Shown here piece by piece: positions 22,057 through 54,997 of a DNA stretch of 64,000 nt (position 1 is its first letter; every line of letters begins with the position of its first letter). The notes below the pieces were generated by a model that ran no database searches, had not been told where the DNA came from, and worked only from the letters and a program-made list of their open reading frames with translations. Both the position numbers and the translations under genes were made by a program. The DNA comes from Agarophyton chilense (taxonomy: Eukaryota > Rhodophyta > Florideophyceae > Gracilariales > Gracilariaceae), in contig JARGXX010000016.1 of NCBI GenBank assembly GCA_030374765.1, forward strand, positions 992,001 through 1,056,000, read 5' to 3'.

Positions 22057-23409
22057 TCATGCAATTTTTAAAGAAATGTAGGGGTGATTCTGAATATCGG
22101 GCACAATGAATATTCCACATCTTCTGTTTTCATGGACCACAATGCGACGAAAAGCAAATCTTAATCGTGTAGAAAAGGATTTTAGGCCCCTTGCGGTGTA
22201 AAAAGTTCGAAAAGGGGACCCTTTACTTTTTTCGTGTCGGGTTGGTTTATACCACGGAAGAAAGTTCTCAAAGAAAAAATATCTTGGAAAACCAGTCGCT
22301 ACCACAAAATATTCGTTTTTGCCGCAAAGAAGGCACTTTCGCCACGGCTTTGTATAGATTCGGGGTCTCAGAATTCCGGAGCAATGAAACTTACTGTTGT
22401 TAGTGCATCTTTTGCGGGGTAATGCTTTTCGTTTTTTTCTTTGGACAATTAATAGAATGAAAGTAAGTAAAGCCACAAAAACACCTTCTTGGATAAAAAA
22501 GTTGTTATTGTAACACTTGGGTCGTTCATCTTTTGTCAGATTGACGGGGTGCATCAAATGTTTGTCAAATATGGATTGTGGGCTGCATTCTGTTGGAGAG
22601 TAAAAGAATCTGTTGAGTTACGTAAAACTAAACACTATAAGCGTCTGGAACTCTGGTTCGGGTGCCCCTTACCCAGTCCAGATTCCGAAATCTGGAAGGC
22701 AGCCAGGCTAACGTGTTCGGTTCCTATTCGGTATCGGTCTGGAATTCTGGGATTGTGGGATTTCTGCGATGCACCCATTGTATTCTCTGGTAGTCTTAAC
22801 ATGTATAAACCAGTGCATAAAACGAAGGCAATTCTGTACAGTTTCTTAATTAATTGTATAAAGAATTATTGGGGCAAAATCAGCTATAATGCTCTTGATC
22901 CTTTCATTGAATCAATGCGAAGCTGTGTATATGTCATTGAGGCCAAACGGTCGAAAATAAAGTACTAAACGTGCGCTACAGAGAGTATGATACAATAAGA
23001 TATGTTTATCGAAATTTTAGTGCAAGGGATATGATTTTGAAACCTTCACCTCAGTTTGTTAATTTGCTTGGCTGGTGGTGATAGAATCATGGAACAAAGT
23101 AATCAAATACTGTTTTTTTGCTTTTTTAACTATGCTGGTGGAGATGCTCTAATCCGAACGGAGTGAACACTACGATTAAAAAATTTCCACGCTGAGTGGA
23201 CACGTGGGAATGCCGAGAAAACCTTCCACTCAGAATCTTCGTGATGAGGAGCGATCGGTCTATCAGTTGGACGGAGTACAGCTTCATCACAGGCACCATA
23301 GACTTTATCAAAGTCGTCAACGCCCCGCCCCCTTCCTGTCCATCTGCACGATTCGATTCGATCTATCTCCCACCCCGCAGTGCTTGTTCTCCCGCCCTCA
23401 TCTGTTCCA
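22057..23409. other. No recognised gene; 5' flank of the PMT gene
   Basis: Open frames on both strands (22057-22557 minus, 22489-22968 plus) resemble nothing I know and lack clean ATG starts. The last ~250 bp before 23410 is the likely promoter and leader of the mannosyltransferase. Confidence 0.4.
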
Positions 23410-25050
23410 ATGACCACTTCTAAGCAGTCCGAGCTGCGACGTCGGCGCCCAAAACCGGGCGGGGGCAACCAGACATATCTTACAGCGTTTGACGCCGCCG
23501 AGAAGCCGCTAAAGTTTGGTGCGGTGAAGGGGAAAAGTCCTGATTCTGGCGCGAAGTTGAACAAACCACGTTACGCAAATGTGACGCGTCCTCGCGTTTT
23601 CACCGTGTATCAGACAGTTTTAGACTGGATTATCATGGTGGTTCTGTTCGTGGCAGCGGGAATTGTGCGTTTTTATCGTCTTGCCTATCCAGATGTTGTA
23701 ATCTTTGATGAAGTACATTATTTATCCTTCAATAATCATGTGTTGAACGGAACATATTTTTTCGATGTGAATCCGGTTTGGGGAAAAGTCGTCATGGCAT
23801 TCATCGCAAAATTGGTTGGGTATGACCCATCCTATGATCTACCTGCTCTTGGTGAAAAACTTTCTACACCCTTTCAGGCGTTTGCGGCTCGTGCCCCTTG
23901 TGCTTTCTTCGGTACGCTTACGGTGCCCGTATTTTACAAGGTTTGCAGATGGTTGCATCTTAGCACTTATGCATCAGTTGTCGGGTCTGCATTCATTTTG
24001 TTTGATTCTATGCATGTCATTCAAAGTCGGGTCGCCATGGTCGATGCTTTGCTTGTGTTCTGGACTTGCTTTTCTGTCATCTGTGCTTTTACTTTGTGGG
24101 ATCAGAAGAATTTTATCATTTTTAAGGGTAAGGATGTCAAATTTTCCTCTGTGGCTAAGATGATCATGCTGCTCGTTGTCACTGGCATCAATTGCGGTCT
24201 ATCAATATCTGTGAGGTGGACTGCGTTTGCTACTCCAGTGCTAATCTTCATCATCAGCTTTTTTGGCGTGGGTCCTTTTCTTGTCGAACCTCTTAATCTT
24301 ATCGAATTGTTGGTGTTGTACACAAGTGCATTTGCTGGGTATTGCGGCTCGTTCTTGGTATTCTTATTGCAAGTAAACAAATCGGGCTCGGGCGACGGTT
24401 TTATGAGCCCCGATTTCCAGGCTTGTCTGCAAGGGAACAAACACGCACAACCCGGTACTTGTGAAATGTCGTATGCAGCGCGTATATGGGAGATTAACAA
24501 GCAGATTTTTAACTACTCCAAGCACATCCGTGGTAAGGACAAATGGGGATCCTCATGGTTTCAATGGATCATCAATTGGAGAGGGGCATTGTATTACAAA
24601 TGGTATGATACGCCAAAGAAGTTATTGGCTGTCATATACATTCTGATGAACCCTTTCATGACACTGTTGATTAACTTATTGATGATCGCGTTTGTCGCGG
24701 GATTGTTCTACGTTGTACGGTATCGTAAGCAGCTGTCTATCAACGAGGCGTTGAAGGCCCATCTGCGACGAGGAAGTGTGATGTTCTTTGGTTGGGTATT
24801 AAGTATGCTGCCAACGATGGTGGTGTATAGATCAGGCCCGGTTTATCAGTATCTACCTGGCTTATTCTTTGCGCAGGCATTAGCTGCAGTCGGCTTCGAT
24901 TTTATTCCCAGAAAGCTTCGCCCAATTGCATGCATCATAGTTGTGGCGATACTTGTGGCAGGGTTTGTGTACTGGAGTCCCTGGGTGTATGGCACTGTTC
25001 TTTCGGAAGAGGAACACATAAGACGAAGGTGGCTACCCCGGTGGGATTAG
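23410..25050 (+). CDS. PMT-family protein O-mannosyltransferase without MIR domains
   Basis: Predicted ER membrane enzyme that moves mannose from dolichyl-phosphate-mannose to Ser/Thr of secretory proteins (GT39). The first ATG is at 23410, giving 546 aa in a single exon. Seen: a basic cytosolic N-terminus (1-65), a first membrane segment (about 71-89), then a lumenal loop with FDEVHY (Asp100-Glu101, the conserved acidic pair of PMTs) and FFDVNPVWGK. The family usually has HPPLGK at the last site, so the His and Pro are changed. Many membrane helices follow. A soluble loop of about 65-75 residues (about 325-395) stands where Pmt1/2/4 and POMT carry about 200 residues of three MIR repeats. The C-terminal helices with YRSGPVYQYLPGLFFAQAL match the PMT C-terminal block. 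Its 3' end faces the gene at 25239-25505. Confidence 0.88.
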   Translation: MTTSKQSELRRRRPKPGGGNQTYLTAFDAAEKPLKFGAVKGKSPDSGAKLNKPRYANVTRPRVFTVYQTVLDWIIMVVLFVAAGIVRFYRLAYPDVVIFDEVHYLSFNNHVLNGTYFFDVNPVWGKVVMAFIAKLVGYDPSYDLPALGEKLSTPFQAFAARAPCAFFGTLTVPVFYKVCRWLHLSTYASVVGSAFILFDSMHVIQSRVAMVDALLVFWTCFSVICAFTLWDQKNFIIFKGKDVKFSSVAKMIMLLVVTGINCGLSISVRWTAFATPVLIFIISFFGVGPFLVEPLNLIELLVLYTSAFAGYCGSFLVFLLQVNKSGSGDGFMSPDFQACLQGNKHAQPGTCEMSYAARIWEINKQIFNYSKHIRGKDKWGSSWFQWIINWRGALYYKWYDTPKKLLAVIYILMNPFMTLLINLLMIAFVAGLFYVVRYRKQLSINEALKAHLRRGSVMFFGWVLSMLPTMVVYRSGPVYQYLPGLFFAQALAAVGFDFIPRKLRPIACIIVVAILVAGFVYWSPWVYGTVLSEEEHIRRRWLPRWD

Positions 25051-29150: not shown

Positions 29151-30236
29151 CTAGCGTCGGGTTCCACCAACTAGCTTGTTGGAACTTCTCTTGCCCTTCA
29201 CCTCAGCCGATTGCACTGCGTGCAACAATATATACTTTCGATCTGTAGTCGGGTTGTGATGGGCGGCTCCCTTGCTCCAATCGTAACCAACGGCGTACGC
29301 AAAAATGTTTCCATCAGTGCTGAAGGCTGTCGCAGTAATTGGTTGGTTGACCCTTTGGAACTGCTTGAGACGATGCTTGTTATCTTTATCCCAAAAGTTG
29401 AAACCACCGTCCCCACCCGCCGTAGCAAACGTTCCGTGTTGTTCGTGGAACGAAATCGAGTTGACTGGATAAATGACGCTATTGTCCGGATCACGATGGC
29501 ATTTGAATGCAAAGTCCAAATTCTTTCGGTCTTTCTCATGCACATGATCAATACTCACACGCCCTTCGATTGAGCCTACAGCATATCCGCTCTGATCTGG
29601 GAAAGTAGCCAGACATCGGAACTGGTATTTGAGTTGTGCCATCTTTTCATGGTAGACCACAGCGGGCTTACGAATATCATATACACGAAGTTTTCTATCT
29701 GCCGTTCCGACAACGAGCAATGGGGCTCGAACATCCATACAGTAGACTCTTTCGGACAGAGGAACGGATCCCATCGGAGTCCCTGTGGGAGCCCGCACAT
29801 CCCAGTACTTAATAGTCTTATCCCATGACCCAGTCACAAGACACGGAGAGCCGTTTCCCATATCCTTGCAGTAAAATACATGTCGAATGACATCATCGTG
29901 AGCAGCAATTGTAGTTTGGTTGTTAGAGCTCAATTGCCACATTCGGGCTACTTTGTCGGCTCCTGCGGAAAACACAGCTTGACCATCTGCGCTCCACGCG
30001 ACGTCAAGCACCGGTCCCTGATGTTGTTTCATACCAACAGGGTTGGATTGTCCGTTGGACTGCACCTCCCAACATCGTACTTCATTATCCCACGATCCGG
30101 AAAGGAGGAACGACTTCGGAGCCAACGTTTGGGGCGAGAAAGCAAGGGACTGTACCGTATCATTCGGCGGCTGATTGAGAAGAACATCATTATTCGGATT
30201 GTGTGGAGCGTTAGCGTTTCCCGCGGCAAATGACAT
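29151..30236 (-). CDS. RAE1: mRNA export factor RAE1/Gle2, WD40 protein
   Basis: Predicted nuclear-pore-associated mRNA export factor that binds the GLEBS motif of a Nup98-type nucleoporin and also acts in mitosis. ATG at 30236 gives 361 aa, the usual length, in a single exon. Seen: a short disordered N-terminus, then WD40 blades with SGSWDNEVRCWEV (about 46-58), SAGADKVARMW (about 90-100), TGSWDKTIKYWDV, GTADRKLRVYDIR, and a TAGGDGGFNFWDKD blade. The RAE1-specific end carries GYDWSKGAAHHNP, close to the family's GYDWSKGxEHxNP signature. The last residues are basic. It diverges from the acyl-CoA-binding protein gene, with 625 bp between the starts. Confidence 0.95.
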   Translation of the reverse strand: MSFAAGNANAPHNPNNDVLLNQPPNDTVQSLAFSPQTLAPKSFLLSGSWDNEVRCWEVQSNGQSNPVGMKQHQGPVLDVAWSADGQAVFSAGADKVARMWQLSSNNQTTIAAHDDVIRHVFYCKDMGNGSPCLVTGSWDKTIKYWDVRAPTGTPMGSVPLSERVYCMDVRAPLLVVGTADRKLRVYDIRKPAVVYHEKMAQLKYQFRCLATFPDQSGYAVGSIEGRVSIDHVHEKDRKNLDFAFKCHRDPDNSVIYPVNSISFHEQHGTFATAGGDGGFNFWDKDNKHRLKQFQRVNQPITATAFSTDGNIFAYAVGYDWSKGAAHHNPTTDRKYILLHAVQSAEVKGKRSSNKLVGGTRR

Positions 30237-30861
30237 TGTTGAAGTTGCGCGCAGCCTTGTCCCGAGGAAAGGCGCAAAAATGAGAAGTCAGTGGTAATGA
30301 AAGTCGACCGATCTTCAGTTGCCAAATAGACAATCTAGGAAGGTTCTAATTGGTCTGCAAATGCACGAGAGCGCCACACGCTTGCGGGAGTCCCCTTGAT
30401 GGAGAACCGAAGACCTTGGTATACGTCGAGTAAAAGCCTTGCACTTGAGTTTTCGCCGAAGCAACCCAAAGTGTAACGAAAAAACGGAGTGCAGATGAAA
30501 GTTCGCTTGTACTGTAGTGATCCAGACGACTAATTTTGCATCGCATCACGCATCAACGGGTGCATTGTATCCCCGATCGATCTTGGTCTTTTCATTAATT
30601 CTCATGTTATTGGTCGCCGATTTCCACTTGTTTTGTCTTGAATGGTTGGTGAACTCGCTCCTTCGACATTTCCATACAGTCCCGATTTTCTGGCAGGCGT
30701 GGAGGGGGTCGGAGCGTAAGACAAATCCATCTCAGATATCTCGTCCTCACAGCTCATTTCGCCGGTTTCGTCAGCTTCAGGTCCCCGGAGCGAGTGACCA
30801 ATTTATCATCGATAAGCAGGCGATCTCTTTTCGTACAAATCTTCTAATTCTCAAGAACGTA
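30237..30861. promoter_or_regulatory. Shared head-to-head promoter region, RAE1 and ACBP
   Basis: 625 bp between two divergent starts. No TATA box at a standard distance was clear on either side. The plus strand is open upstream of the ACBP ATG from 30517 in the same frame, but that stretch does not resemble ACBP family members and was not added to the protein. Confidence 0.5.
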
Positions 30862-33074: not shown

Positions 33075-33289
33075 CAAGAATGTTTCGCTTTACTTCTGAT
33101 CTTCGTCTTCTTTGTCCCTTCCTCGGTCCCCCCCAGCTGTAGAACTCTACGAACTTTAGCTTGTGCGCTACTTGTAGTCTAGCTAGTTCTACCTTCTAGC
33201 TGTTAGAACGGTTCCCTATATTTGAACCTTGTTCAAATATCTTGTGCGCAAATAGTTCGGACTGTAACCGAACTCAAAATATTAACACA
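33075..33289 (-). repeat. Copia 3' LTR
   Basis: 215 bp, paired with 56422-56634. On the minus strand it starts TGTGTTAATATT just after the purine tract at 33290-33306. It contains two hairpins kept in both copies: ATATTTGAAC/GTTCAAATAT with a CTT loop (33218-33240) and AGTTCGG/CCGAACT (33254-33274). Confidence 0.88.
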
Positions 33290-34012: not shown

Positions 34013-34927
34013 TGTGGAGCAAGACCCGGCGACAGGAAGTGCTCTCAAGGTGTTCGAAGCCTTGCTCCCTGGGGGAGGCAGACTCAGAGACAGACCCCTC
34101 CGTTCCACCCGTAGTGTGGGGTGTAACTCCCACGGGGGATTCCGGCAGTAACGACGGAGGTGAGGGGTAAAAACCGTTGGATCGGGAATGGGTATGGGTA
34201 TCCCAAAGAATGGGGGAAAATCCGGCAAAGAGGAAAAACGGGGCGAGGGTCGGGCACTAACAGGCACCGGACCCGAGAACCAGAAAAGGGGCGAAACAAC
34301 AAAAGAAACCCAATACAGGGGCGAAAACCTGTCCTCGAAAGGAAACACAAAAAGCACGCAACAAGTAAGCAGAACCTCCACGGGGTATCGTGCACGCAGG
34401 TCGTCTGAGCGGTCCCAAGGGGGTGGTTGCACGGAACCCAAACGTGGGCACTCTCCAAGTGGAGTCGTGTCCCTACGCAGGCGTTGCTAACCAGAGCCCG
34501 TTCCGGGTTGTAAGGCCGAAACGATGGCGACGGAGAACCTCTAAAGGTATCGAAGACCAACCTTGGTTACCATTTACTTTGAGCTTCGGACTGTCAGATC
34601 TCGCCTCCCTAAGTAGGGCCCACTAACTAAACTCTACAGTAGTGCACACCTGCTCAGGGCCATACACGTGGAGATCCCACTGCCAGGGCCCAAAAATCCA
34701 ACGTTCTAACAAATATCCGAAAATCGGTGCCAAAATTAAGCCACGTGTATCACGGGGCCAATCCAACCATGGGCCATCCGAATTTTCCCTTATAGGCGAA
34801 ATATAGCCAGAAAACAGTGCCACCTCAGCACACCTTAGAGGGGATCATAGTCATAACCCTCGGAGGGTTCAATCCTCATTCTATGAGTTGCATCTTCAAG
34901 TTTCCCCTAACTGGGCGTTGCTCTACA
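34013..34927 (-). repeat. Gypsy element 1, 3' LTR
   Basis: 915 bp. It holds G-box palindromes CACGTG at 34665-34670 and 34742-34747, a CCAAT at 34758-34762, and a core with TATA motifs on both strands (34787-34805, TATAGGCGAAATATA on plus). The plus-strand side could start the antisense gene at 35009. A conserved ACAGGGGCGA block recurs in the LTR at 61719-62606. A purine tract on the minus strand (34928-34943) abuts it. Confidence 0.92.
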
Positions 34928-35008
34928 TCCCCCCCTCCTTAAGACGAGGAAGAACATTCCGAGCCGCGGGTGTCTAACTTTCCGATCACTATACATATTT
35001 CTTTCCCA

Positions 35009-36865
35009 ATGGGGTCCTTCACCACTTCTGAGGATCGCCACAAAACCGGCACATCGGTACAACTCTCTTCTACTCCTCCGACTTTCGGCGATAAGCAACT
35101 TTTCGCAACAGCGGTCTCGACTAGCGCTCTCAAGGGAATGAACCCATACGCCATCAACCCACTCTCGGGGCCATCGGCCTCCGCGCCGGCGGACAACGAA
35201 GCTCCCCAGCAGGGTGAATATTTCTCCGGTTTGGATGCGGCTCCGTCAGGTACCGAACCTTTCGCCTCGGCGGGCAACCGACATCCTCAGGAGGATTTGG
35301 ACATCAACGCGGTGGCGTGGAACTCCGCCCATGCGATGCCCTTGGTAGCAAACTCGAGAGGTTGGATCTCAAACGAATCCTTTCGAAGGTGGAGTCCCCT
35401 TACCGATCCGGTGATCTATTCCCGCGCTCCGTGGTTCCATCCGACAGCGGTTCGCGACGATGAGCTCATCGACTCCTACGTGGAGGACGGCTAATTGCCG
35501 GGTGGCCTACCTGTTGAGGTTGTACGTTCTCCCGATTGGAGGGCGCGGGTAGCCATAGAGCCTCAGTATCTATACCGCAGTCGCGGGGAGTCCCTGGACA
35601 AGGCGCGCGCAACGATGGCGGCTCTGGCCTACCAGCGATTGGAGAGGTCACGCTTTGACCATCTGGTTCCCCCGGAGTACGGGTTCGACGTCGCCTATTA
35701 CCACACGTACGGTGAGGTCTCCTACAGGGATAACCTGGCAGCCTTTCCCGAAGCCGAGGTCCGCGGACCAGGTTTTCCTCTCCGAGAAGATATGCTCCAA
35801 TGGAGTCGTCCCATCCTTCGGGCTGAGTTCAGGTACTTTCAACGGCAGTTTACCCAGTATGGGTTCGATCGACGCGTGCGCTTCGAGCGCCGCTCGCGCT
35901 CCCGTTTCGGGTTCCTTGTCCCGTATCCTCACGTGGAACTGGAGCGCATCCGTAGCACGGCGAAGGTTGGGCGATTCGTGCCCCTTTCAGCTTGATGGAG
36001 TAAGGTCGAGGTCCCCCGAGGGTGCTTTGCTGAACTGCCCCCATGCATCTACTATATCGGGTCTCGTTTGATGCACGACCCGAACTCGGGATACTGGGCC
36101 CTCGTTGCAGCCGAGTGGGCAGCCCGCGTAGCGGCGCACCTCCTCTGGGATGCTCATGACCATTTCCGTATCTGGTATATTCCTCCGATGCTACGGACCA
36201 TCATGCGTCAGATCGACCTTGTCCCAGTGTTGGGTTCGGCCAGCAACGTGCAGGACCTGTATCCAATCTTGGACGTGATCGACAACACCCAATGGGATCG
36301 AGTTCCAGTGGCAAATCAGCCCGCAGGGGAAGGATCCGCACGAGACAAGTCTCCTGGCCGGTACGATCCGGGCTCCGGTAACTGGGTCTATTACAATCCC
36401 TTCGAAGGGGTTCGCATCAGCGCGGCGCAAGCACGGGGGATGATGGACTCGCCTCGACCGATGCCGGTGGGACACCCGATGGGGTTCATTTATACCGACG
36501 ATTACGAGTACGAGCCTCCAGTAGACCTGGACGATCCAGCGTTGGATAACGAAGTGCCAGCTCCTAGTGGAGTACTCCCTGTGGAGCCATCTGCACCCTT
36601 CCAACCAGTGGGAACGACCTCAGCTGCGGCGGCGAATGCATCCGGTGGCGGTCCATCTGCTCCCCCCGGGTGGGGTGTGAACACCCTTGCGCAGGCGCCG
36701 GTTGCCACTCCGCAAGTGGATAGTGTGCGACAAGGCCTCGTGAACGCAGGCATTCCGATTCCCCCGGGTATGACGGATGTGAGCCAGATGTTGGCTTTCG
36801 CCTCGGCGTACCATCAGGGTCAGAATCCCAACGGTGGGGCGGGTCCCTCCTCGGGCTTTCCGTAG
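35009..36865 (+). pseudogene. Antisense-strand accessory gene of gypsy element 1 (unknown family)
   Basis: Not a family I can name. ATG at 35009, 82 bp inside the 3' LTR, opens one frame of 619 codons to 36865, broken only by TAA at 35492-35494 (relatives have Tyr or Asn there) and TGA at 35993-35995 (relatives have Trp). Seen: a Ser/Thr/Pro-rich N-terminus (1-130); SRAPWFHPTAVRDDELI (about 140-157); WRARVAI and EYGFDVAYYHTYGEVSYRDN (about 225-245); a basic Arg-rich stretch near 300; VEVPRGCFAELPPC; WALVAAEWAARVAAHLLWDA followed by RIWYIPPML; then a Gly/Pro/Ala-rich tail. No clear signal peptide or membrane span. Homologues: 2281-4208, 52779-53676, 57669-58415 and 62642-64000, always on the strand opposite to gag-pol. 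It is convergent with the chromodomain ORF. Confidence 0.8.
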
Positions 36866-36898
36866 TTCCGCCTTCGGGCAATTGTAGAGTCCATAGCT

Positions 36899-37085
36899 TG
36901 GCGACAATAGTAAACTTCTGATATTTGCATAACTTCTTTTCTTCTTCCTTCCTAGGATCTTAACTTCTTCTTCATCTTCTTCATTCCTTCTTAGGATCTT
37001 CTTCATCTTCTTCCCTTCCTAGGGTCCAATCTTCTTCTTAATCTTCTTCTCCACTTCGTGGGTCTTCTTTTCCTTTTTCATTATA
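36899..37085. repeat. Polypyrimidine/polypurine tract between convergent units
   Basis: Seen: about 150 bp of CTTCTT-type repeats on the plus strand (GAAGAAGAT on the element strand) with a recurring CCTAGGATCTT spacer. It lies between the end of the antisense gene and the chromodomain ORF. The same tract is at 52559-52735 in element 2. Confidence 0.85.
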
Positions 37086-37254
37086 AACTGTCCCGATAAC
37101 CGGTGTTGTGTTCCCCGGTTAACGGCGCTAGGCCGAGGGCCAGTAGACATTCCCTCTCAATACGTGTTCTTCGGGATACTCTCCTAAATTCCTCTTCAGA
37201 GGTCCAACATCTTCCTCACTTCGAGGTCGCATCCACAACAGTTCCCGTGGTGGC

Positions 37255-37494
37255 TTACCCGACTTGGGCACGATCCAGACTTGAAGGCAAGGTTACCCGA
37301 GCGCGTCGGTGATAGGATAAAACCTTAGACCTCGGAAGGTGCTCAATGGGTTCCACTGTATCCTCATCAGGCGAGAATCCGTACCATCGGACTTGGTAGC
37401 GAACTTCTCCCTCGGGGGTGTAGATGTGACGCACGATGCGATCGATAACGAATTCCTGCGGGTACACTTTTCCCTGTTCGGGCTTCTCTTCCAT
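37255..37494 (-). CDS. Chromodomain ORF of gypsy element 1
   Basis: A chromodomain of a chromovirus, expected to bind methylated histone and guide insertion. ATG at 37494 gives 79 aa; the frame is open further back to about 37572 without ATG. Seen: FVIDRIVRHIYTPEGEVRYQ, then VRWYGFSPDEDTVEPIEHL with the usual aromatic cage positions, then a basic end. It is separated from the integrase GPY module (38780-38850) by ~1.3 kb with several stops, where chromoviruses usually fuse it to integrase. Either an intron joins them or the domain is made alone. Element 2 has the same ORF with a stop after DEDTV. Confidence 0.72.
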   Translation of the reverse strand: MEEKPEQGKVYPQEFVIDRIVRHIYTPEGEVRYQVRWYGFSPDEDTVEPIEHLPRSKVLSYHRRARVTLPSSLDRAQVG

Positions 37495-37830
37495 CTTGGA
37501 ACGCTCTAGTTCCCTTGAGGGTGTCAACGTAGGGTCTAGACACACCCCGGTGGGTTCTTTTCCGTGTTGCAAGCGGGTCTCAGCACTTCGTCCAAACGGT
37601 GCCGAGTGGCCTGTGGGCTACGTTGTAACTTCCGTCTACGGAGTCAAAATGGCCCAGTTTTGGGGCCTTCTTAAAGCTAAGATCTTCCCGATAACAACGG
37701 AGTTCTTAGATTCCGTGACGGTTGAGAAACCGCGACGCGGTAGTGTCTCCAATCTCAGGGGGTTAAGACTTCAACGTCAACTCGAGCTACGGGGACGAAG
37801 GTTGCTCTTGTGCAACGCGCCGTGCGACGG

Positions 37831-37930
37831 AGGCGGTTTGCGCGACGGTTGGTCGTCAGAGCCTCTTGATTGGCTCAGTGAGGCGGTTTGCGCGACGGTT
37901 GGTCGTCAGAGCCTTTTGATTGGCTCGGTG
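37831..37930. repeat. Two tandem 50-bp units, each with a CCAAT motif
   Basis: Units 37831-37880 and 37881-37930 differ at two positions. On the element strand each holds CCAATCA. The same pair occurs in element 2 at 51714-51813. They lie between the integrase linker and the chromodomain ORF. Confidence 0.92.
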
Positions 37931-38370
37931 CCATTCGACGTGTGCCACATAAATGCGCGGGCGCCGGTTACCACTCCGCAAGCGGGTGTGAGGTGGCTCT
38001 TCCGACACGCGCTAGCACTCTCCTGAGCTGTCCCCGACGGGTTTCACTCATTTCTTTCCCATTCCTGAGGGTTCCAGTGTCTCCATAGGAGTTCCTATTG
38101 CCATTCCATAACGGAGAGCCAAATTTGGTCATCCTCGTCGTCGAGATCTTCCCCGTGCGGGTCCGCTGACACAGCTCGTTCCCAAGAAAGCGGGGTTTGA
38201 GTGTGCGACACCTCAGTGTCTCTTCCGCAGCGGCGGGTGATCGTCGGCTCTGTAGGCGTTCCGGGTGCAGAGTTCTCCACACGACTCTCCCTAGGCGGGT
38301 TTTCGTCATCTTTTCTGACGTTGTGCTCGGCTGGGTCGGCGGTGATGTCGCTACCCATATGCTGGGGTTG

Positions 38371-41300
38371 TTACTTCTCTGTCGCCGGCTCGGTCGGGCT
38401 CGCCGTTTCACTGTGAGAACTAGATTCCCTGTTAGGGCGACTGGTTGACGCCGAAACATCGTCCTGGGAAGGAACTAAGTCCTCCTCCCCCTCCTTAGGC
38501 GGAGAGCCAGGAGGCTTGATTACCTCCGGTGGGGGAGTAACTCTGTAAGAGTTCGTTGGCTGGGCCCTTGAGGGAGCGGGCCCAGGTTCGGGAGTATCCG
38601 AAGGTTCCGGTAGGTCGGTTAAACCACGTTCCGGGTGCGGAAGTATAACGGGGCGGGTGTTCGAATCTCCGCCTGACGGGTTAACTTCCGTTGAATCATT
38701 CCCTGTGGAGGGCGTTGGTGCCGACACCACTTCCACATTTGGGTTGGGCGCTCGTGTGATGCGGTCCCTGGAGATCCGTTCGTGGCGGTTAGCGATATCC
38801 AACACCACCGTGTCCGGGTCAACAGAAACCACACGATAGGGTCCGTCCACAATTGGGCGAAAGCTTGTGCCTACGTTCCTTTTCAGGATTGTAGTATTCC
38901 TTTCGAAGGAAGACGAAGTCGTCGGGCTCCACCTGAGGTAGAGGTTTGCGAACCCGATTGTCAAAGTCCTTCTTGTAGGCGCGTTGAGCTTTGTCCATTG
39001 CTTTCCGGGCTATCGGCACCATCTTCGTAAGCCACTCCTTCCAGGCTTCTCGGTACAATCCCAGTGACGGGTACGTCGACAGCGTCGGTTGAGCCTCGAT
39101 GGCGACCGGCGGCGGTGTCCTCGACAGTACCAGTTCGAATGGGGATAACGATGTAACCCGATGTACCTGGGTGTTGTATGCATACGTGATAGCGTCTGTG
39201 TACAAGTCCCAATTTTTGGGGTGATCCGCAACATACGATCTCAAAGCGTTGAGTATCGTGCGGTTAAACCTCTCCACCTGGCCATTCCCCTGAGGGTGAT
39301 ACGTAGTAACAAATAAATTCCTTACATCAAGGATTCGACATACATCCTGAAAGAACTTTGATGCGAATTGCCCTCCGTTGTCGGATAGCAACTGCACCGG
39401 CGGTCCATATACGAACACCCAATGGGTCACGAACGCTTGCGCGACGGTAGCGGCGGTGATCCGCTTCAGCGGCACAGTTCTCGTTAGCTTAGAGAATCTG
39501 TCAGAAATGACAAGCAGATACCGATGACCTCGGGGCGTCCTGATAAACTCCCCTAGGATGTCTATGGCCGCGAATTCGAGTGGAGCCCGTGCCGGGAACA
39601 GCGTCAACTTCTTAGAGTGCTTCCGAAGTTTGACGTCATTCTTGGCGCAATTGGTGCAGGCCCATCTGACGGCGTAACAATCGAATGCCATTGCCGGCCA
39701 GTAAAAGTCCCTTCTCAACGTGAGGTACAGTTTTCTTCCCCCGGGGTGGGCGCCAACCTTCACATAGTGAGTGAGGTGTAATACCCTCTGTTGTAGGGTG
39801 TGCGGCACCACTATCCTCGGGCGAGGTCCAACGGTCCTGATTAGGTAACCCTGATCGTCGTCCTCGAAAGGTAACTGCAATCCTCCGTTGAGGCGAGCCC
39901 TAATCCGTGTACAGAATGGGTCGAGCTGTTGCTCGCGTATCATCTCCTCTGGAGAGATAGGTATAAAAGAGCCGGTCGGCGAATCCAGACTCTCGTTGAC
40001 GAGTATATCGTCACAAACATCATCCGTCAGCGGTTGAGCTCCTCCCTCGAGGTCCGATACCATAAAGCATGGGATGTCATCGTCCTCGTATGGTTCCGTT
40101 TCCGCTGTGGTTCCCAAGCGGGATAGTGCATCAGCCTGAGTGTTCAGCTTCCCTTTCTTGTACAGGATCTCGAAGTCGAATTCCGACAGTCGGAGACGCC
40201 AGCGCATAAGGCGGCCCGACGGTTCGGAGATCTCCAGGAGCCAACGCAAGCATGCGTGGTCCGTATGGACTTTGAAACGAGTACCCACCAGATAGGGGCG
40301 AAGTGTAGCTAAGGCCCACACAACGGCTAAACATTCTTTCTCGGAGACCGAGTAGTTCCTTTCATGGATATTCAGGGAACGTGACCAGTACCCAATAGGG
40401 TGACGTTCACCATCCTCAGAAGATTGGAACAGTGCACACCCTACTTGGTTTGCACTAGCATCGGTGTCCACTTCGTAAGGGAGCCCAGGATTGGGTAGAG
40501 CCAAGATTGGCGGTGATGTTACGGCATTCACCAGTGCCGTGAAGGCAGACGCTTCCGCGTCGCCAAAAGGTTCCAGTTCAACTGGTTGTCCTTTCGTCAG
40601 GAGCCTGTTGAGGGGGTTGGCAATATCCGCAAAGTTCGGGACGAATCGGCGATACACGTTACACAGACCTAAGAAGGATCGCAACTCCGTTTGAGATTTC
40701 GGGTGTTTTGCTTCCTTCAAGGATTTCACTCGTACTTCATCGATTGAAAGCTGTCCGGGACGGATGATATGACCCAGATACTTAACCGAATCGGTGAAAA
40801 ACTCGCACTTCTTGAGTTTCAAGGTGATTCCCGCGTCGCGGAGTATCTTCATTACGTCCCTGACGTGTTCGAGGTGGTCATCCAGGTTGTTGGAGAAGAC
40901 AATAATGTCGTTTAAATACACTAGACACGTCCTCCACTTGAAAGGAGCCAACAGAATGTCTATCGCCCGTTGAAACGTTGCGGGGGCATTTGTCAACCCA
41001 AAAGGCATCCTCCGGAATCGGAAAAGTCCTTTATGACACACGAAAGCCGTTTTGTCTCGATCTTCCTCCCTAATAGGGACTTGCCAGTAGCCCGAATTGG
41101 CGTTGAGGCTAGAGAAAACAGTAGCGCTCCCAATGGAGTCGATGTATTCGTCCATCCGAGGGATCGGGTACACATCCTTAATGGTTACCTCGTTCAGGCG
41201 TCTGTAATCGATGCAGAAACGCCACGATCCATCCGGTTTCGTAACTAACACCACTGGTGAGGCCCAAGCGGACTGGGCAGGTTCAATTACGCCGGCTTTA

Positions 41301-42547
41301 AGCATCTTTTCCACCTGAGATTTCTCCTCTTCCCGAGCTTTCGGTCCAGCCCTGTAAGGGTGTTGGGCAATAGGCCGAGTGTTCGGTAACAAGTCGATGC
41401 GGTGTTCTGTAATCCCAATAGTTCCAAGGGAACCATCCCACACGGGGGTAAATTCACAAAGCATGTGCCTCAGCTTCTCCCGATGAGATGCGGGTACATG
41501 GTTGAGATCCCATTTCTCCAATTCCTGAACAGGATCCGTCTGGTCTGCTCCTGTGATAGGGGCCGTAACCTTCTGAGGTTTAAAGTGTTCAGCGTGTGGA
41601 ACTGCAGTCGTATGCTCACCGTCTTTCGCGATTTCGGCAGTGTCCTCCCCCTCCTTAGGGTCCGCCACACCAAGGACCTCTGCGATAGAGATCTTTGTAG
41701 GTACGACCGCATGCGGATGTGGAAGAACAGAACCCAGGATCTGGTGTTTGACCAAATGCTGCGTTGTCTTTCCAAAGTTGGCTACCAAAACCTTGAAAGG
41801 TTTATCCGGTTCCACGGAGACAGCCCCATTCGCAAGGGCGAGTTGACGCCGCGTATACAGAGACGGGTTCGGTTGTACCACATGCACACCAATTTGCTTG
41901 GTAACAACTGTGACCCAAACCTGGGTTTCTGGCGGGATAGCCACTGACTTCGCAACCTTTACCCGTGTAGACATCGGGTCCTTCTTCACAGATTCCTGCG
42001 CGACAGGGAGAGGAACGCGTGTTCGCGCTGCTCCCTGTAAGGGTTTACGAACGATTGGGATCGTAGACCCGTCTTCGAGTTTCACAGTTCTATTCCGAGG
42101 ACGGATGGCTTCCACGAAGCGGTCGCAAAAGTCACAACCCAGTATGACTGGTGCTGCAAGTGACTTGCATACAATAAACTCTAGCTGAACGAGATAGGAG
42201 CCTAACCTCACCATGAGGGAAATTGTACCCAGTGTCCGTAGCGGGTTGTTGTTCGCATCGGCGATATCCAAACGTGGACCGGTACGAACTTGAACCCGGA
42301 GCAGCGGGGGCAACAATTCAACATGAATTAAGTTAGGAGCGGCTCCTGTATCCAGGACAGATATTTGACGAACCATAAACTGGTTGGACAGGCCGAAGTC
42401 GGCGAATACCTTATAATTCCGCTTGGCCATTACCCTAACTCGATCCGGAATACGGAGATTACGGGACCGTATCCACGGGTGACGGAAAACACTAAAGTAT
42501 CCCGAGTTAACGTAGGTGTCAGCCGTTTTCCTTGAAAGGATTGTCAC
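38371..42547 (-). pseudogene. Ty3/gypsy Pol of element 1 (protease-RT-RNase H-integrase), damaged
   Basis: The open frame 42547-38819 has its first ATG at 42430. Seen in order: protease VLDTGAAPNLIH; RT motif A reads FSSLNANSGYWQ (Asn at 41102-41104 codon) and motif C reads YLNDIIVFS (Asn at 40910-40912), so two metal-binding Asp are Asn; RNase H with DTDASANQVG, SEKECLAVVWAL, HTDHACLRWL and ADALSR, all intact; integrase zinc finger and core with AIDILGE, LSDNGGQF and VERFNRT, intact. Near 38851-38860 one extra base shifts the frame, and IVDGPYRVVSVD (GPY module) plus a Pro/Ser/Glu-rich linker continue in another frame to 38371. Gag ends 84 bp upstream in a different frame. Predicted to lack polymerase activity. 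Confidence 0.9.
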
Positions 42548-42574
42548 AGCTGGGGAGCGAAGCTAGAGCGCCTC

Positions 42575-42620
42575 GGGCGTCTTCAACTCCAGCTTAGAAG
42601 ACGCCCCTCCCGCAGGGGAG
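42575..42620 (-). promoter_or_regulatory. Two stem-loops between gag and pol
   Basis: Seen: GGGCGTCTTC (42575-42584) pairs with GAAGACGCCC (42597-42606) over a 12-nt loop. Directly beside it CTCCC (42607-42611) pairs with GGGAG (42616-42620). They follow the gag stop (42631-42633) by about 10 nt on the element strand. A role in translating pol is inference. Confidence 0.75.
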
Positions 42621-42630
42621 ACTCCCAAGT

Positions 42631-44661
42631 TTAGTTTTTCGAAGCGGACCCCACCGAATTCGGTGCAGCTGCCTCGAAGGGGACCGGTTGTTCCCCGTTC
42701 GCGGGTACAAGTTCTGTATCCCTGTCAGCAAGGTGAGCTCGGAGTATCCTTTGTTCTTCATAGGACCTACTCGGGACTCGAGCTTTCTCCTCAGGGGTCA
42801 GAGCCTCGTACTGAGCGATAATTCGTGAACCCTCCCGCAGGGGAAATGTGCAGTCTGGTGCTTTGTGACCACGGAGGTAACACAAATAGCAAATCAGCTC
42901 TGCCGGGTTCGGTTGTGGACGTGAATCCACGCGACGTGGTGCTGTATCCCTCCATCCGGGGCGAGAGAACCGAGCAGCGGTATTCGCAAAAGGTAGCGAT
43001 GCTGCTGGCACCCTCCGTCCTTGGGTATAGAGCGCAGGGTCTTCATCCGTAGTCGGAGCGGATGTCGACGGCAACTCAGACGTACCCATAGATTCGGAGT
43101 TACTTCCCATGAAGTGAATGTTATCATTGACCCCCACAGGGGTAGGGCCTCCTGCGAGTGACAAAGACGAGTTACCTCCATCGGCGAGGAGTGCATTTGT
43201 CGGCCGACTCTTTCGGTTCTGCCGGGCACGGAGAGTATTCCCCTCAGCCTGGGCGTACTGAACCAGTTCCAAGTAGGTCAGCTTGCGCTTCTCTTCCCGA
43301 TGTCGGGCAACCAATGACCTTATCGAGGGGTCCAATCCATCCACAAACATGGAGCATCTCTCATAGGCGGGGAATACATTCCCGCATCGGTGAAACGCTT
43401 TATTCAAGCGAGTTGAATACACCGTTTCGGTTTCCATCGGCTTCTGCCGCGTATCCCTTAATGCAAGGGTTGCTTCCTGAATCGCATTTCCAGTAGCGTA
43501 TGACCTCAAGAGGTACTGCACCGCTTCGGGCCAGCACGTGACTCCCCCTTCCGAGGCTCGGGATGATCCACGGACGGAGTTGAACTGGTCTTCAGCCATC
43601 CCGTTTAAGAAATAGGGTAATGCAAGATACGCTTGCGCTTCACTCATACCGAGGATGCCAGCCTCCTGGACGAACCTCGCAAGGAAATCGAGCACCAGAA
43701 TTGGGTCTGTTCCTGTGAACTCCCTCTTCTGTAGGGTGATTCTCAGCCTTTTGATGTAGTCCTTGACCTTACCCGTTCCGCCGGATGTTCGATCTCCCGA
43801 AGGGTTATCCAAGCGGTAATAGCGGTACGATAGCAGCTTCCGATAGAGAGGATTCGTCGGCTTCAGCTCCCTTAATCCAAGGTGTTTCCTACCCTTCTTC
43901 CGGGTACGGATTGCCCCTTGAGAGGTGTAAGTAGCCTTCGACCGAGTCGCCCGGGATGACCGGCGTTCATCTTCACTATCCGAAGATTCGGAGGACGAAC
44001 TCGATGGCGAGCGATTGGGATCGGAATCCGATAAATCCTTTTGGAGGTGAACCTTCTTCTTGGACTTGCGGCAGTCCTGTTTAGCGGAGCGGTGTTCTTC
44101 GTCTTCCGAAACGTCGGGTTTATCCTTCGAGGCTGCTGCGTCTCCGTCCATACGGATAATGTCCTCGAGGGTGTCCAGCCGAGCTTGGAAGCGTTCCGCT
44201 TGCACGCGGTGTTCCTCCACGAGGCTCCGGTACTCCTGGATAAAGACCCCAGGGGTACCAAAGCTTTCCAAAAAAGAGTTCACATCCCTCCTCAGGGTAC
44301 GAAGGTCATCGGCGACTCCCCGCACCTGGGCGTCCTCCACCTTGAGGCGGAGGGTAGTAACCTCCTGAAGGAGCTCGATGTGAGCTGCGTTGGCGATATC
44401 GATTCGAGTCTCCAGGCGCTGTAATTCAGGGTCGGCCCGACTTCGGGGTGCTGCTGAGGGGGTCTTCACCACTGGAGCTGGGCCCACAGCCACGACCTCT
44501 CGAGGACCTGAAACCACTGAGGGTGCTCTCCGAGTGTCCGGATCGATACCGGAATCGTTCCGACCTTCTGGAATTGAGGTCCTCGACCTAGGCGGGGCCG
44601 GGGGCACTGAATCCGCTTGACGGTTCGATCCAGTCCTGGAACCACGGGTAATCGGCGACAT
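42631..44661 (-). CDS. gag: Gag polyprotein of gypsy element 1
   Basis: Structural protein that forms the particle in which reverse transcription occurs. ATG at 44661, 228 nt after the 5' LTR, gives 676 aa, uninterrupted. Seen: a disordered Ser/Pro/Arg-rich N-terminus (1-80); a coiled-coil region (about 80-170) rich in Leu, Glu and Arg; a Ser/Asp/Glu run (about 205-235); a Gag capsid-type region (about 290-480) including FLARFVQEAGI, WPEAVQYLLRSYATGN and RLNKAFHRCGNVFPAYERCSMFVDGL; and a CCHC zinc knuckle CYLCYLRGHKAPDC (about 590-605). The protein appears identical to the Gag at 49009-51039, although the LTRs of the two elements differ. Confidence 0.93.
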   Translation of the reverse strand: MSPITRGSRTGSNRQADSVPPAPPRSRTSIPEGRNDSGIDPDTRRAPSVVSGPREVVAVGPAPVVKTPSAAPRSRADPELQRLETRIDIANAAHIELLQEVTTLRLKVEDAQVRGVADDLRTLRRDVNSFLESFGTPGVFIQEYRSLVEEHRVQAERFQARLDTLEDIIRMDGDAAASKDKPDVSEDEEHRSAKQDCRKSKKKVHLQKDLSDSDPNRSPSSSSSESSDSEDERRSSRATRSKATYTSQGAIRTRKKGRKHLGLRELKPTNPLYRKLLSYRYYRLDNPSGDRTSGGTGKVKDYIKRLRITLQKREFTGTDPILVLDFLARFVQEAGILGMSEAQAYLALPYFLNGMAEDQFNSVRGSSRASEGGVTCWPEAVQYLLRSYATGNAIQEATLALRDTRQKPMETETVYSTRLNKAFHRCGNVFPAYERCSMFVDGLDPSIRSLVARHREEKRKLTYLELVQYAQAEGNTLRARQNRKSRPTNALLADGGNSSLSLAGGPTPVGVNDNIHFMGSNSESMGTSELPSTSAPTTDEDPALYTQGRRVPAASLPFANTAARFSRPGWRDTAPRRVDSRPQPNPAELICYLCYLRGHKAPDCTFPLREGSRIIAQYEALTPEEKARVPSRSYEEQRILRAHLADRDTELVPANGEQPVPFEAAAPNSVGSASKN

Positions 44662-44868
44662 GCTGCAGACACGACACCGACGATTCGAGGTAACGATGAA
44701 ATTCGATCACGAGATTCCCGGAGAACGGATGACGTAACACAAAACAAAAATAAAAACCAATTCCACCCTTTCCCAAGGGAACCACTACAACAAATCTTCT
44801 CGACGGTGCTTCCTCTTCCAAGAGATATTCCAACACGTGGATGACCAACCCAAAAGTCCGAGAACGGA

Positions 44869-44886
44869 TTCTAAGTCGGGAGACCA
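44869..44886 (-). promoter_or_regulatory. Primer-binding site of gypsy element 1
   Basis: Two nt inside the 5' LTR the element strand reads TGGTCTCCCGACTTAGA, with the TGG expected for pairing to the CCA end of a tRNA. The same sequence follows the LTR of element 2 (48784-48801). I cannot name the tRNA. Confidence 0.65.
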
Positions 44887-44888
44887 CT

Positions 44889-45803
44889 TGTGGAGCAAAA
44901 CCCGGCGACGGGAAGTGCTCTCAAGGTGTTCGAAGCCTTGCTCCCTGGGGGAGGCAGACTCAGAGACAGACCCCTCCGTTCCACCCGTAGTGTGGGGTGT
45001 AACTCCCACGGGGGATTCCGGCAGTAACGACGGAGGTGAGGGGTAAAAACCGTTGGATCGGGAATGGGTATGGGTATCCCAAAGAATGGGGGAAAATCCG
45101 GCAAAGAGGAAAAACGGGGCGAGGGTCGGGCACTAACAGGCACCGGACCCGAGAACCAGAAAAGGGGCGAAACAACAAAAGAAACCCAATACAGGGGCGA
45201 AAACCTGTCCTCGAAAGGAAACACAAAAAGCACGCAACAAGTAAGCAGAACCCCCACGGGGTATCGTGCACGCAGGTCGTCTGAGCGGTCCCAAGGGGGT
45301 GGTTGCATGGAACCCGAACGTGGGCACTCTCCAAGTGGAGTCGTGTCCCTACGCAGGCGTTGCTAATCAGAGCCCGTTCCGGGTTGTAAGGCCGAAACGA
45401 TGGCAACGAAGAACCTCTAAAGGTATCGAAGACCATCCTTGGTTACCATTTACTCTGAGCTTCGGACTGTCACATCTCATCTCCCTCAGTAGGGCCCACT
45501 AACTAAACTCTACAGTAGTGCACACCTGCTCAGGGCCATACACGTGGAGATCCCACTGCCAGGGCCCAAAAATCCAGCGTTCTAACAAATATCCGAAAAT
45601 CGATGCCAAAATTAAGCCACGTGTATCACGGGGCCAATCCAACCATGGGCCATCCGAATTTTCCCTTATAGGCGAAATATAACCAGAAAACAGTGCCACC
45701 TCAGCACACCTTAGAGGGGATCATAGTCATAACCTTCGGAGGGTTCAATCCTCATTCTATGAGTTGCATCTTCAAGTTTCCCCTAAGTGGGCTTTGCTCT
45801 ACA
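44889..45803 (-). repeat. Gypsy element 1, 5' LTR
   Basis: 915 bp, partner of 34013-34927. It shares a block of variants with the 3' LTR of element 2 and not with its own partner (see findings). Confidence 0.92.
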
Positions 45804-45808
45804 GAAAC

Positions 45809-47867
45809 TAGCCGCAAATGCGCAGAATAGCGAAGCAGCCAGTCCCAACCAGCCCAGCGAACTGTTAAGCGACCTAAACGCATCTGCTTCAAGGCTATTC
45901 AGTTGTTCTTCTCGTTGTTTACACCTGTTGCGATCCAGGGGGTATGGTTTGTAGGCCTTCAGCTTTTTGTCTCCATGTATCGTAATGGAATGATCTTCGA
46001 ACTGAGTAACCATGAGGCCACAAAACTGAATGTCCCGGGTGCATACACGATAGTGTCTAAGGTGAATGATTTCCTGATCTGTTCGATAACTTCAGTAATC
46101 TTCCTGCGTGACCCACCAAAAAGTACATCATCAACGACCTTAATGGCTGCAACAGATAGCTTTCCATCTTCCATCTGATAGAATATCTGATGTACATAGA
46201 TCAGTTAACTAAACCCATTTCTTGTAAAAAGATCGTCGCTCAATCGTTGCCATTTCGCAGAAGCATTCACAAGCCCATAGGTTGCTGCAAGAATTAACCA
46301 GTAGAAATTATACCTTGTGGTGCACTCACGAGGTGGGACCATGTACACATCTCTCGTTGCGTCTCCAGTCTGGAGAAACACGCCCTTGAAATCGATCTTA
46401 GCCAATGTCCACTTGTGTATCACTGCAAGTGACAACAATATTCGAATACCAGTAGGTGGGCAGGTGGTCGAATCGGTCTTCAAAGCATGCTTCTGTTTGT
46501 CTTCGTTTCCATGTGGGACAATTCGCGCACGTAAAAGGAGTGATGTGGCATCACACTTTTTGATCTTGTAGAATACGTGACTGGAGATGATGTTGGCATC
46601 ATGAGGGACCTGCGTGATAGGAACCTCACGAACAGTATTCTTGAATGCCTTTTCTTCCACCTTGTAAGCATTCTCTGTGAGAAAAGGGGGAACACCATGG
46701 GATTGGTGCAACATAAACTCTTTATTGCCCAGAACGTCATAGTATTGATGCAGTACATCGGCCTCGATACTATCCAGCTCCTGTCGTGGAGAAGCTGAAC
46801 TTCGGTTCCCACAATAGCTTCTCCTCCTGTGGCGTTGTCGACATATCTCCATGTCTCCTCTTGAAGTTTAAGAACTTCCTTCTGACCATTGTCGTAGCAA
46901 ATGGTGTATCGTTCGGATCGGGGGGAGAAACGCACGACTGATCCTGTGTAGTACTGGTTATCCAAAGGCCAGTCTTCGATTGTGTCTCCCAACTTGGGTA
47001 ATGTGGCACCAATGCCTGCTGTGTCTCCAATACCCATATCGTACTGACTGTCGTAGTTCTGTGTTCGCGTTGCTTCGGTAGTGTCCTCTTATGCAAGACA
47101 CCAATCGTAGGCAAGTGAAACTGAGTGATCCAACTCGTCGATTGCATCCTACACAGCAGAGACTAGCTCGTCCTGACCCACCGCGGGCCGTACATCTTCT
47201 ATCGCTGCCGATATAGTTCTACCATTGGCACCAGGGACTGTCACCGTTCGATTTTCATGGTCGTATGTGATAACAGGCTTAACCCCGGTCCACTTTCCTC
47301 GTTTCTCATTTGAATTCTTGATGAAGACCTGAATAATGTCCCCTACACTGATAGGAACATCTCTCGTGGCCTTCAAGCGCAATATGAGGGTCAACTTGCG
47401 CTTCGCTAGCAGGTTTCATGCGCTTTGATAAGGTCGGGGGGGATCTCAGAGGGTATGGCACCACTCAGAACAGAGCAAGTGTAGCCTTTGGCCAGTTCTT
47501 GGTCCGACGGAACATCACTGCCGTAGAGATCATTCGATATGCGCAGCGACTTATTATTCAAAAGAGGTACCTGGGCGTCATCTTCGTCGTTCGACGCAGC
47601 CTTGAGACGGAGAAATATGTCTCTAATAATTCGGTGCTTGGACTCAAGCTTATTCTTGTTCTGTCTTCTTGGAGGCAGTGGTCGTGCTTCAATGCCATGG
47701 CGACCGAGATATCCAAGATATATCGAATTGTTAAACGTAGGATCGAAGAGGACAGACTTCGGGTACCAAAAGAGGGATATCCAATGGGACTCAAACGCAC
47801 AGATGGCGTTGTTCAGAGACGTACCTACTACGGTCGTTCCCGTAGAGTAGAGTGCATTGGAGTCCAT
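45809..47867 (-). pseudogene. Copia integrase end and reverse transcriptase (middle of the split element)
   Basis: Seen on the minus strand from 47867: SNALYSTGTTVVGTSLNNAI, then FDPTFNNSIYLGYL (second catalytic Asp) with PPRRQNKNKLESKHRIIRDI (catalytic Glu), both typical of GalEa-type copia integrases. RT follows with VPHDANIISSHVFYKIK, RIVPHGNEDKQK and LAKIDFKGVFLQTGDA (46852-46205), then KVVDDVLFGG (46140-46110) with the catalytic pair intact, and LGWLGLAASLFCAFA before the element 1 break. Stops and frame changes occur at about 47147, 46480 and 46175. It lies between the two gypsy insertions. Confidence 0.85.
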
Positions 47868-48781
47868 TGTAGAGCAACCCCCAGTCAGGGGATACTTGAA
47901 GATGCAACTCATAGAATGAGGATTGAACCCTCCGAGGGTTATGACTATGATCCCCTCTAAGGTGTGCTGAGGTGGCACTGTTTTCTGGTTATATTTCGCC
48001 TATAAGGGAAAATTTGGATGGCCCATGGTTGGATTGGCCCCGTGATACACGTGGCCTAGTTTTGGCACCGATTTTCAGATATTTGTAGAACGTTGGACTT
48101 TTGGGCCCTGACAGTTGGATCTCCACGTGTATGGCCCTGAGCAGGTGTGCGCTACTGTAGAGTTTAGTTGGTGGGCCCTACTGAGGGAGATGAGATCTGA
48201 CAGTCCGAAGCTCAGAGTAAATGGTAACCAAGGTTGGTCTTCGATACCTTTAGAGGTTCTTCGTCGCCATCGTTTCGGCCTTACAACCCGGAACGGGCTC
48301 TGGTTAGCAACGCCTGCGTAGGGACACGACTCCACTTGGAGAGTGCCCACGTTTGGGTTCCGTGCAACCACCCCCTTGGGACCGCTCAGACGACCTGCGT
48401 GCACGATACCCCGTGGAGGTTCTGCTTACTTGTTGCGTGCTTTTTGTGTTTCCTTTCGAGGACAGGTTTTCGCCCCTGTATTGGGTTTCTTTTGTTGTTT
48501 CGCCCCTTTTCTGGTTCTCGGGTCCGGTGCCTGTTAGTGCCCGACCCTCGCCCCGTTTTTCCTCTTTGCCGGATTTTCCCCCATTCTTTGGGATACCCAT
48601 ACCCATTCCCGATCCAACGGTTTTTACCCCTCACCTCCGTCGTTACTGCCGGAATCCCCCGTGGGAGTTACACCCCACACTACGGGTGGAACGGAGGGGT
48701 CTGTCTCTGAGTCTGCCTCCCCCAGGGAGCAAGGCTTCGAACACCTTGAGAGCACTTCCCGTCGCCGGGTTTTGCTCCACA
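47868..48781 (+). repeat. Gypsy element 2, 5' LTR
   Basis: 914 bp, TG..CA, followed by the same primer site as element 1. In one block it carries the variants of element 1's 3' LTR. Confidence 0.92.
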
Positions 48782-52735: not shown

Positions 52736-52778
52736 ATTGTCGCCAAGCTATGGACTCTACAATTGCCCGAAGGCGGAA

Positions 52779-54987: not shown

Positions 54988-54997
54988 AGCGCATCAC

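Follow-up and report, generated by a model that had tools for sequence, protein, structure and literature searches.

An antisense gene under coding constraint between families of red-algal chromodomain Ty3/gypsy elements (Gracilariaceae)

Antisense accessory genes are known in flowering plants, in the Boty element and in HTLV-type retroviruses (PMC7264820). The plant elements Retand, Grande and RIRE2 are described as carrying antisense ORFs between pol and the 3′ LTR, and non-autonomous derivatives are known. TRP28 is reported in 97% of Retand clusters, GENE23 is described as nuclear and as having its own promoter, and for Grande both an antisense transcript from its own promoter and a nuclear protein have been shown (PMC11963269, PMC7264820). 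Boty of Botrytis and Sclerotinia has an antisense accessory gene, named brtn in Botrytis cinerea (PMC8365987, citing Zhao 2011), and the account that compares these systems gives the function of the plant and fungal antisense genes as unknown (PMC7264820). The antisense genes of HTLV, HBZ among them, have their promoter in the 3′ LTR (PMC7264820). Algal elements with a chromodomain need not be chromoviruses: gypsy lineages of this kind from the brown alga Ectocarpus are reported as unrelated to them (PMC12477816).

We analysed a 64,000-nucleotide stretch of the red alga Agarophyton chilense (called the window here; contig C16:992001-1056000) and searched the 79.8-Mb assembly to which it belongs. 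The window holds copies of a genuine antisense gene, under constraint between families, in chromodomain Ty3/gypsy elements of the Gracilariaceae. These elements share gag, the RT-RH-INT order and a chromodomain behind the integrase with other chromodomain Ty3/gypsy elements; the antisense gene is extra. It resembles aORF-3R of Retand, Grande and RIRE2 in that a long ORF lies antisense to gag-pol in the interval between pol and the 3′ LTR, occurs in several families and is accompanied by non-autonomous derivatives. Retand, however, has TRP28 (PF04195) and is described as a non-chromovirus lineage of flowering plants, whereas the elements here belong to a red alga and have a chromodomain, and none of the 12 algal members scanned matched PF04195. 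The likeness to brtn of Boty, drawn by description only, is that of an additional antisense gene in a gypsy element, the host there being a fungus. With the HTLV genes the likeness is in position only. HBZ is a bZIP protein; the algal members match neither bZIP nor any other Pfam domain. HBZ is also much shorter than the algal antisense protein. The first-pass annotation had named Grande and HBZ as parallels and claimed homology to neither, a restraint that the lack of any TRP28, bZIP or other Pfam match justifies.

No earlier report of such a red-algal gene was found in the titles and abstract openings of the open-licence literature. Antisense accessory genes themselves are already known; what appears to be new is the protein family, the red-algal host group, the box pair and the derivative pattern. 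That red algae have yet another such family, with no relatives that can be recognised, suggests an opposite-strand gene at the 3′ end to be a recurrent solution.

Antisense frames and elements in the window

Table 1. Positions of elements, genes and sequence boxes in the 64,000-nucleotide window
Feature	Position	Strand	Details
Element A	34013-45803	-	Ty3/gypsy with 915-bp LTRs; target duplication GAAAC
3′ LTR of element A	34013-34927	-	915-bp repeat, 97.8% identical to 44889-45803; 5-bp target duplication GAAAC
5′ LTR of element A	44889-45803	-	partner of the 34013-34927 repeat
gag of element A	42631-44706	-	691 codons; C-terminal part looks zinc-knuckle-like by eye; label given from position
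pol of element A (RT, RNase H, integrase)	38819-42562	-	Pfam RVT_1 1.4e-35, RT_RNaseH 8e-35, rve 1.1e-9
3′ end of element A pol region, with chromodomain	37258-37617	-	PF00385, E 2.9e-8
Polypurine tract of element A	34928-34945	-	adjoins the 3′ LTR, between LTR and antisense ATG; from sequence
Element B, pol-less derivative of A	47868-54671	+	target duplication TCCAT; LTRs 47868-48781 and 53758-54671; gag 48964-51039
AS1, family C antisense gene, remote homologue	2281-4424	-	ATG at 4424, upstream of the frame start first noted (2281-4208)
pol 3′ part of AS1's element (RNase H tail, integrase, chromodomain-like stretch)	1-2270	+	matched by element A pol in tblastn (E 3e-77)
AS2, antisense gene of element A (family A)	35009-36865	+	618 codons; two internal stops in the window copy
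AS3, antisense gene of element B	52779-53676	-	internally deleted AS2 copy; core lost, frame shifted
AS4, truncated 5′ part of a family F antisense gene	57669-58415	+	beside another LTR; BLASTP homology
AS5, family E antisense gene	62642-64000	+	one internal stop; runs beyond the window end
Paired CCACGTGT/ACACGTGG boxes, 3′ LTR of element A	34664-34749	.	344 and 267 bp before the antisense ATG
CACGTG pair, LTR beside AS4	57481-57538	.	one of the two is CCACGTGT
CCACGTGT pair, LTR beside AS5	62415-62468	.	

Element A has the LTRs, target duplication, RT-RH-INT order and chromodomain by which a chromodomain Ty3/gypsy element is recognised (Table 1). Its gag had no Pfam match, and its pol had no match in a scan against prokaryote genomes. 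The window also contains other material. A Copia-type RT fragment lies at 46208-46867 (-; RVT_2, E 1.9e-9). A tyrosine-recombinase-like ORF at 59113-60457 (-; PF00589, E 4.3e-5, below the cut-off) adjoins an ORF that looks RNase-H-like by eye, and the two are perhaps a DIRS-like element. A 480-aa gag/protease-like ORF of another retroelement, with a weak DUF1759 match and a zinc-knuckle-like motif by eye, occupies 54997-56436 (-) and adjoins the second copy of a 212-bp repeat (33076-33287 and 56423-56634). Two host genes were identified: a protein O-mannosyltransferase-like gene at 23302-25047 (+) and a WD40 gene at 29154-30287 (-), for which the best match, THOC3, is below that model's cut-off.

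Five frames in the window, AS1 to AS5, had been annotated as related and open. The relatedness holds for four of them: AS2, AS3, AS4 and AS5 belong to one protein family of about 600 aa. AS2 is 38.6% identical to AS5 over 389 aa (E 4e-79) and 37% identical to AS4 over 92 aa (E 3e-17), AS4 matching both AS2 and AS5 across approximately 90 codons near its end, and AS3 is 95.6% identical to AS2 over 228 aa of the C-terminal part. As open frames the window copies do not stand, since each of the four carries stops, a lost core with a changed frame, or a truncation (Table 1), and AS1 is related only remotely, by profile comparison. An open copy of family A elsewhere (L055) is 618 aa long, the same length as AS2, and beyond the window a further 420 bp of AS5 align to a protein of Gracilariopsis chorda (P0003). 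The motifs described as common to the frames are all present in AS2 and AS5, and the first (APWFxPxAVxDxEL) also in AS4; AS1 lacks most of them in literal form.

The window copy of AS1 has two in-frame stops soon after its ATG and a frame change near its 3′ end, and its tail contains PPKKRARL. BLASTP detected no similarity between AS1 and the other antisense frames and single-sequence hhalign gave an E-value of 0.028, so AS1 was rejected as a plain family member. A five-member profile of family C, compared by hhalign with a seven-member profile of the other families, scored 50.5 (probability 78%, E 1.8e-5), with an identical motif order across 141 columns; no control exceeded 29.4, whether columns were shuffled (60 runs), blocks were shuffled (60 runs) or the profile was reversed. 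Because of these family profiles and shuffle controls, we accept AS1 as a remote homologue of the AS2/AS4/AS5 family, visible only by family-profile comparison. Family C copies are mostly 66–76% identical to AS1 and include open frames of about 700 aa, and a search with the C profile returned seven proteins, all from A. chilense. The chromodomain-like stretch beside AS1, near 1871-1966, matched PF00385 at 0.0016, below the cut-off. Upstream of AS1, the stretch 4500-5200 (-) is repeated in the genome at 82–86% and might be the LTR of family C; 40 genomic places were scored for these 701 bp, and no same-strand pair lay at element distance among the matches listed.

Families, coding constraint and position across the genome

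Candidates of five types were found in the genome: at least 71 of type D (P0003-like), at least 92 of type C (AS1-like), at least 135 of type A, at least 134 of type E (AS5-like) and at least 150 of type F (AS4-like). The open representatives measure 591 aa (D), 622 aa (E), 618 aa (A) and 608 aa (F, L057). Many copies of types A and D have open frames (21 of the 30 D loci read have no internal stop in the matched stretch), and stops occur in many rows of types C, E and F. The G. chorda homologue P0003 (BWQ96_03215) is 617 aa long and in a profile search showed 46% identity over 98% of AS5, the remaining matches being three A. chilense fragments. No relatives outside red-algal sequences were found in protein searches limited to candidates sharing short words; one of these searches gave two A. 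chilense matches, at 86 and 90% identity. Three D copies (L039-L041; C68:3138241, 3147438 and 3156635) have equal scores and a constant spacing of 9197 bp, as in a tandem array of one element.

To compare families, one open copy each of D, E, A and F was aligned (563–590 codons). Amino-acid identity is 31–48%. Across the six family pairs, identity at third codon positions is 0.28–0.36, near background, and at positions 1 and 2 it is 0.49–0.62 and 0.52–0.64. The dN/dS values are 0.18 (D/E) and 0.31 (E/A), the remaining four pairs being saturated, and 0.39 for AS2 and AS5 (core 0.35). As dS is 1.7–2.8, the between-family range of 0.18–0.39 is only rough. Within family C, six pairs gave dN/dS of 0.29–0.54 at dS 0.19–0.64. 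Recent copies look different. The pooled pN/pS within family D is 0.67 (28 distinct of 30 loci), a weaker constraint than that on A-family pol (0.44, 20 loci), and the two broken copies AS2 and AS3 have a dN/dS of 0.84 on 21 changes, which is no evidence for selection and the value least in its favour. Values of this kind are as expected for mostly neutral decay after insertion: the recent copies are decaying almost neutrally, whereas constraint shows between the lineages. Variants of the D family, relative to expectation, have N/S of 0.70 when shared and 0.79 when singletons, a difference too slight to use.

A coding frame on the other strand could have produced the antisense frame as a by-product of composition. 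This was rejected: each reverse-strand frame over AS2 and AS5 has 8–23 stops, and the conservation, with its third-position pattern, tracks the antisense reading frame. The annotation had argued for selection on an element-encoded product across diverged LTR families and had set a dN/dS near 1 between families as one of the results that would count against it. The between-family values, rough as they are, did not refute it, and five families in one genome, together with a full-length homologue in another genus, point the same way. Selection on the antisense product between families is supported.

The antisense gene is convergent with a pol ending in a chromodomain in all five families. At the D loci, the chromodomain stretch is on the opposite strand in 30 of 30, and the match starts 336–343 bp beyond the antisense stop; a pol piece upstream of the chromodomain was found in none of these 30 flanks, probably because the flanks end too soon. 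For family A, 37 copies of pol were compared. In 21 of them an A-type antisense match follows downstream at no more than 6 kb, in every case on the opposite strand and never on the same strand; the other 16 have none nearby among the matches listed. Families E and F have the same layout at one locus each, and family C in the element of AS1 in the window. A stretch homologous to the chromodomain is present in D, E and F as well. The annotated rule that adjoining gag or pol lies on the opposite strand is borne out in the window by gag and pol of element A and by pol of AS1's element.

In families A, E and F the antisense gene lies directly beside an LTR. The starts had been placed 25–82 bp inside an LTR purine tract at three loci, and the distances from the LTR end obtained here agree: 82 bp for AS2, approximately 25 bp for AS4 and approximately 36 bp for AS5, where the LTR ends of AS4 and AS5 were judged from the points at which genomic LTR copies stop matching. 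The AS5 end is set near 62606 because most genomic copies stop at query 505–510 or extend to 516. An LTR pair was found for family E, in that the stretch before AS5 recurs 10.46 kb further along C16 in the same orientation at 98% identity, and for family F as same-strand pairs about 10 kb apart on C25, C103 and C68. For family D, an LTR beside the antisense gene would follow from the tract context: the ATG is 47–51 nt from the start of the tract motif at the 22 of 30 loci that match both search strings. The family D tract had no match in the window.

The layout of the protein is alike in all six representatives, with part borders set by hand at motifs. A low-complexity N-terminus rich in Ser/Pro/Thr/Ala/Gly is followed by a core of 308–317 aa (about 315) with a net charge of -7 to +7, and by an acidic tail with a net charge of -10 to -22. 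Hydropathy peaks at 0.9–1.5 in six of seven proteins and at 1.82 in one C-family frame. Family C tails have a basic PPKKR-type motif and D and E have arginine runs; no clear NLS was seen in families A, D, F or the G. chorda protein. Pfam gave no match at E up to 10 in any of seven and a further five members (12 scanned), PF04195/TRP28 and bZIP included. A genome-wide PF04195 search was empty, and its control searches were empty too. Structure prediction (AlphaFold, two models) gave a mean pLDDT of 41 and 39, which is very low confidence. Sequence searches of solved structures gave weak matches that were taken as chance: DRS2 at E 0.12, within the low-complexity tail, and designed TIM barrels at E 0.014 and at 0.044, where no single stretch passed alone. 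One further search had no match.

Pol-less derivatives and the possible role of the product

Element B does not differ from element A in gag (0 of 2076 positions), but it is without pol, and the core of its antisense gene is deleted. Its junctions have short overlaps of 17 and 9 nt, which would fit template switching. The pol-deletion junction is spanned in at least 29 genomic places (29 of 40 among the matches listed) and the antisense-deletion junction, near 53457-53465, in at least 40 (40 of 40 among the matches listed). Both occur together in 20 of the 29 pol-deletion copies, and the antisense deletion is present in 3 of 37 pol copies. Eight A-type antisense matches were hand-picked from the at least 135; in five, a pol-deletion junction precedes the match by 1.65–1.71 kb, and open antisense frames of 640–650 aa are present in three of these pol-less copies. 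Pol-less copies recur with a broken antisense gene (most) or an open one (some). Because at least 40 copies share the same antisense deletion, and pol-less copies recur with or without an open frame, the antisense product appears to be dispensable in cis and would then act most simply in trans. Given the broken copies, it may also be needed nowhere at all.

The account we favour, with moderate confidence, is that of an old protein-coding antisense gene that lies downstream of pol and, in three families or more, immediately adjoins the 3′ LTR. The U3 part of this LTR would supply an antisense promoter, and the gene would then be expressed from integrated DNA only and apart from the packaged gag-pol RNA. 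The product would be a soluble nuclear protein that helps to regulate the expression of elements in trans, as an accessory factor whose probable targets are the LTR U3 regions with their common CACGTG pairs. Full copies could in that case still provide for derivatives that have lost pol, the antisense core or both.

A role as an accessory replication factor, in nuclear import, integration or particle function and not in transcription, is possible, though we are inclined to doubt it. The constraint between families is like that of an element protein, three of the five pol-less copies (from the eight picked matches) retain an intact antisense frame, as might be seen if its protein could work together with gag, and a part in nuclear import of the pre-integration complex has been suggested by authors working on plant elements (PMC7264820). 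A protein expressed from the opposite strand would, however, be expected to be uncoupled from particle assembly, and many copies are without the gene in cis. Those same multiplied copies with a broken gene, and the failure of the short-word protein searches to find relatives beyond red-algal sequences, would suit a passenger, either a captured host gene or a remnant of another mobile element, with no function for the element. Its presence in five families and two genera, its coding constraint and its convergence to the chromodomain at every place examined make this unlikely.

The position between pol and the 3′ LTR is also the place of env, and the convergent layout could yield dsRNA over the 3′ part of the element. 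An Env-like or cell-to-cell transfer protein is nonetheless hardly credible: such a protein would have a sense orientation and transmembrane segments, but the gene is antisense, its tail is acidic and of low complexity, and hydropathy peaks at 0.9–1.5 in six of seven proteins and at 1.82 in the seventh. The other reading takes the antisense RNA as the functional product, through silencing or dsRNA control, with the frame incidental or a by-product of composition; small-RNA control is discussed for the plant antisense ORFs (PMC7264820). We regard this as very improbable, as 31–48% of residues are kept while third positions are near background, the reverse strand is closed by its 8–23 stops per frame over AS2 and AS5, and the frame has a length of 591–622 aa in four families and 617 aa in another genus.

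Regulation by the antisense product through the U3 regions draws on the boxes in the LTR ends. CACGTG is a known target of bHLH/bZIP proteins. Over the 400 bp that precede the antisense ATG, families A, D, E and F share only short local matches with one another, and two CACGTG palindromes are present in all four LTR ends compared. The longer form CCACGTGT occurs twice in A, D and E and once in F, a total of seven against a resampled mean of 0.04 and a maximum of 2 (5000 resamplings), the CACGTG pair having been noticed by eye before testing; any hexamer present at least twice in all four regions turned up in 3 of 1000 resamplings. Of the 14 occurrences of CCACGTGT/ACACGTGG in the window, 10 fall within LTRs, either of elements A and B or next to AS4 and AS5, and a further two follow closely on the 5′ LTRs of elements A and B. 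Boxes noted for their concentration in LTRs of different families, often in pairs, are at 34664, 34741, 45540, 45617, 48047, 48123, 54013, 57531, 62415 and 62460. The arrangement varies: two 8-mers are present in 22 of 30 D copies, so the boxes are unpaired in some, the pair is differently placed in one E-family copy (L056), and AS1 has one CACGTG in the 800 bp upstream.

A more specific and rather speculative proposal is that the antisense protein is a transcription regulator of a new class, made by the element itself, with paired CCACGTGT-type boxes in the U3 of its own LTRs as recognition sites. Such a cis-trans circuit would have been kept as the LTRs diverged beyond alignment, and it would also control the pol-less and antisense-deleted derivatives in trans. 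The boxes could also serve a host factor only. With five families that have open copies, natural deletions and a shared candidate operator, the function is open to direct test. A further CACGTG pair was noted at 17735-17828, where the sequence resembles the LTR beside AS4.
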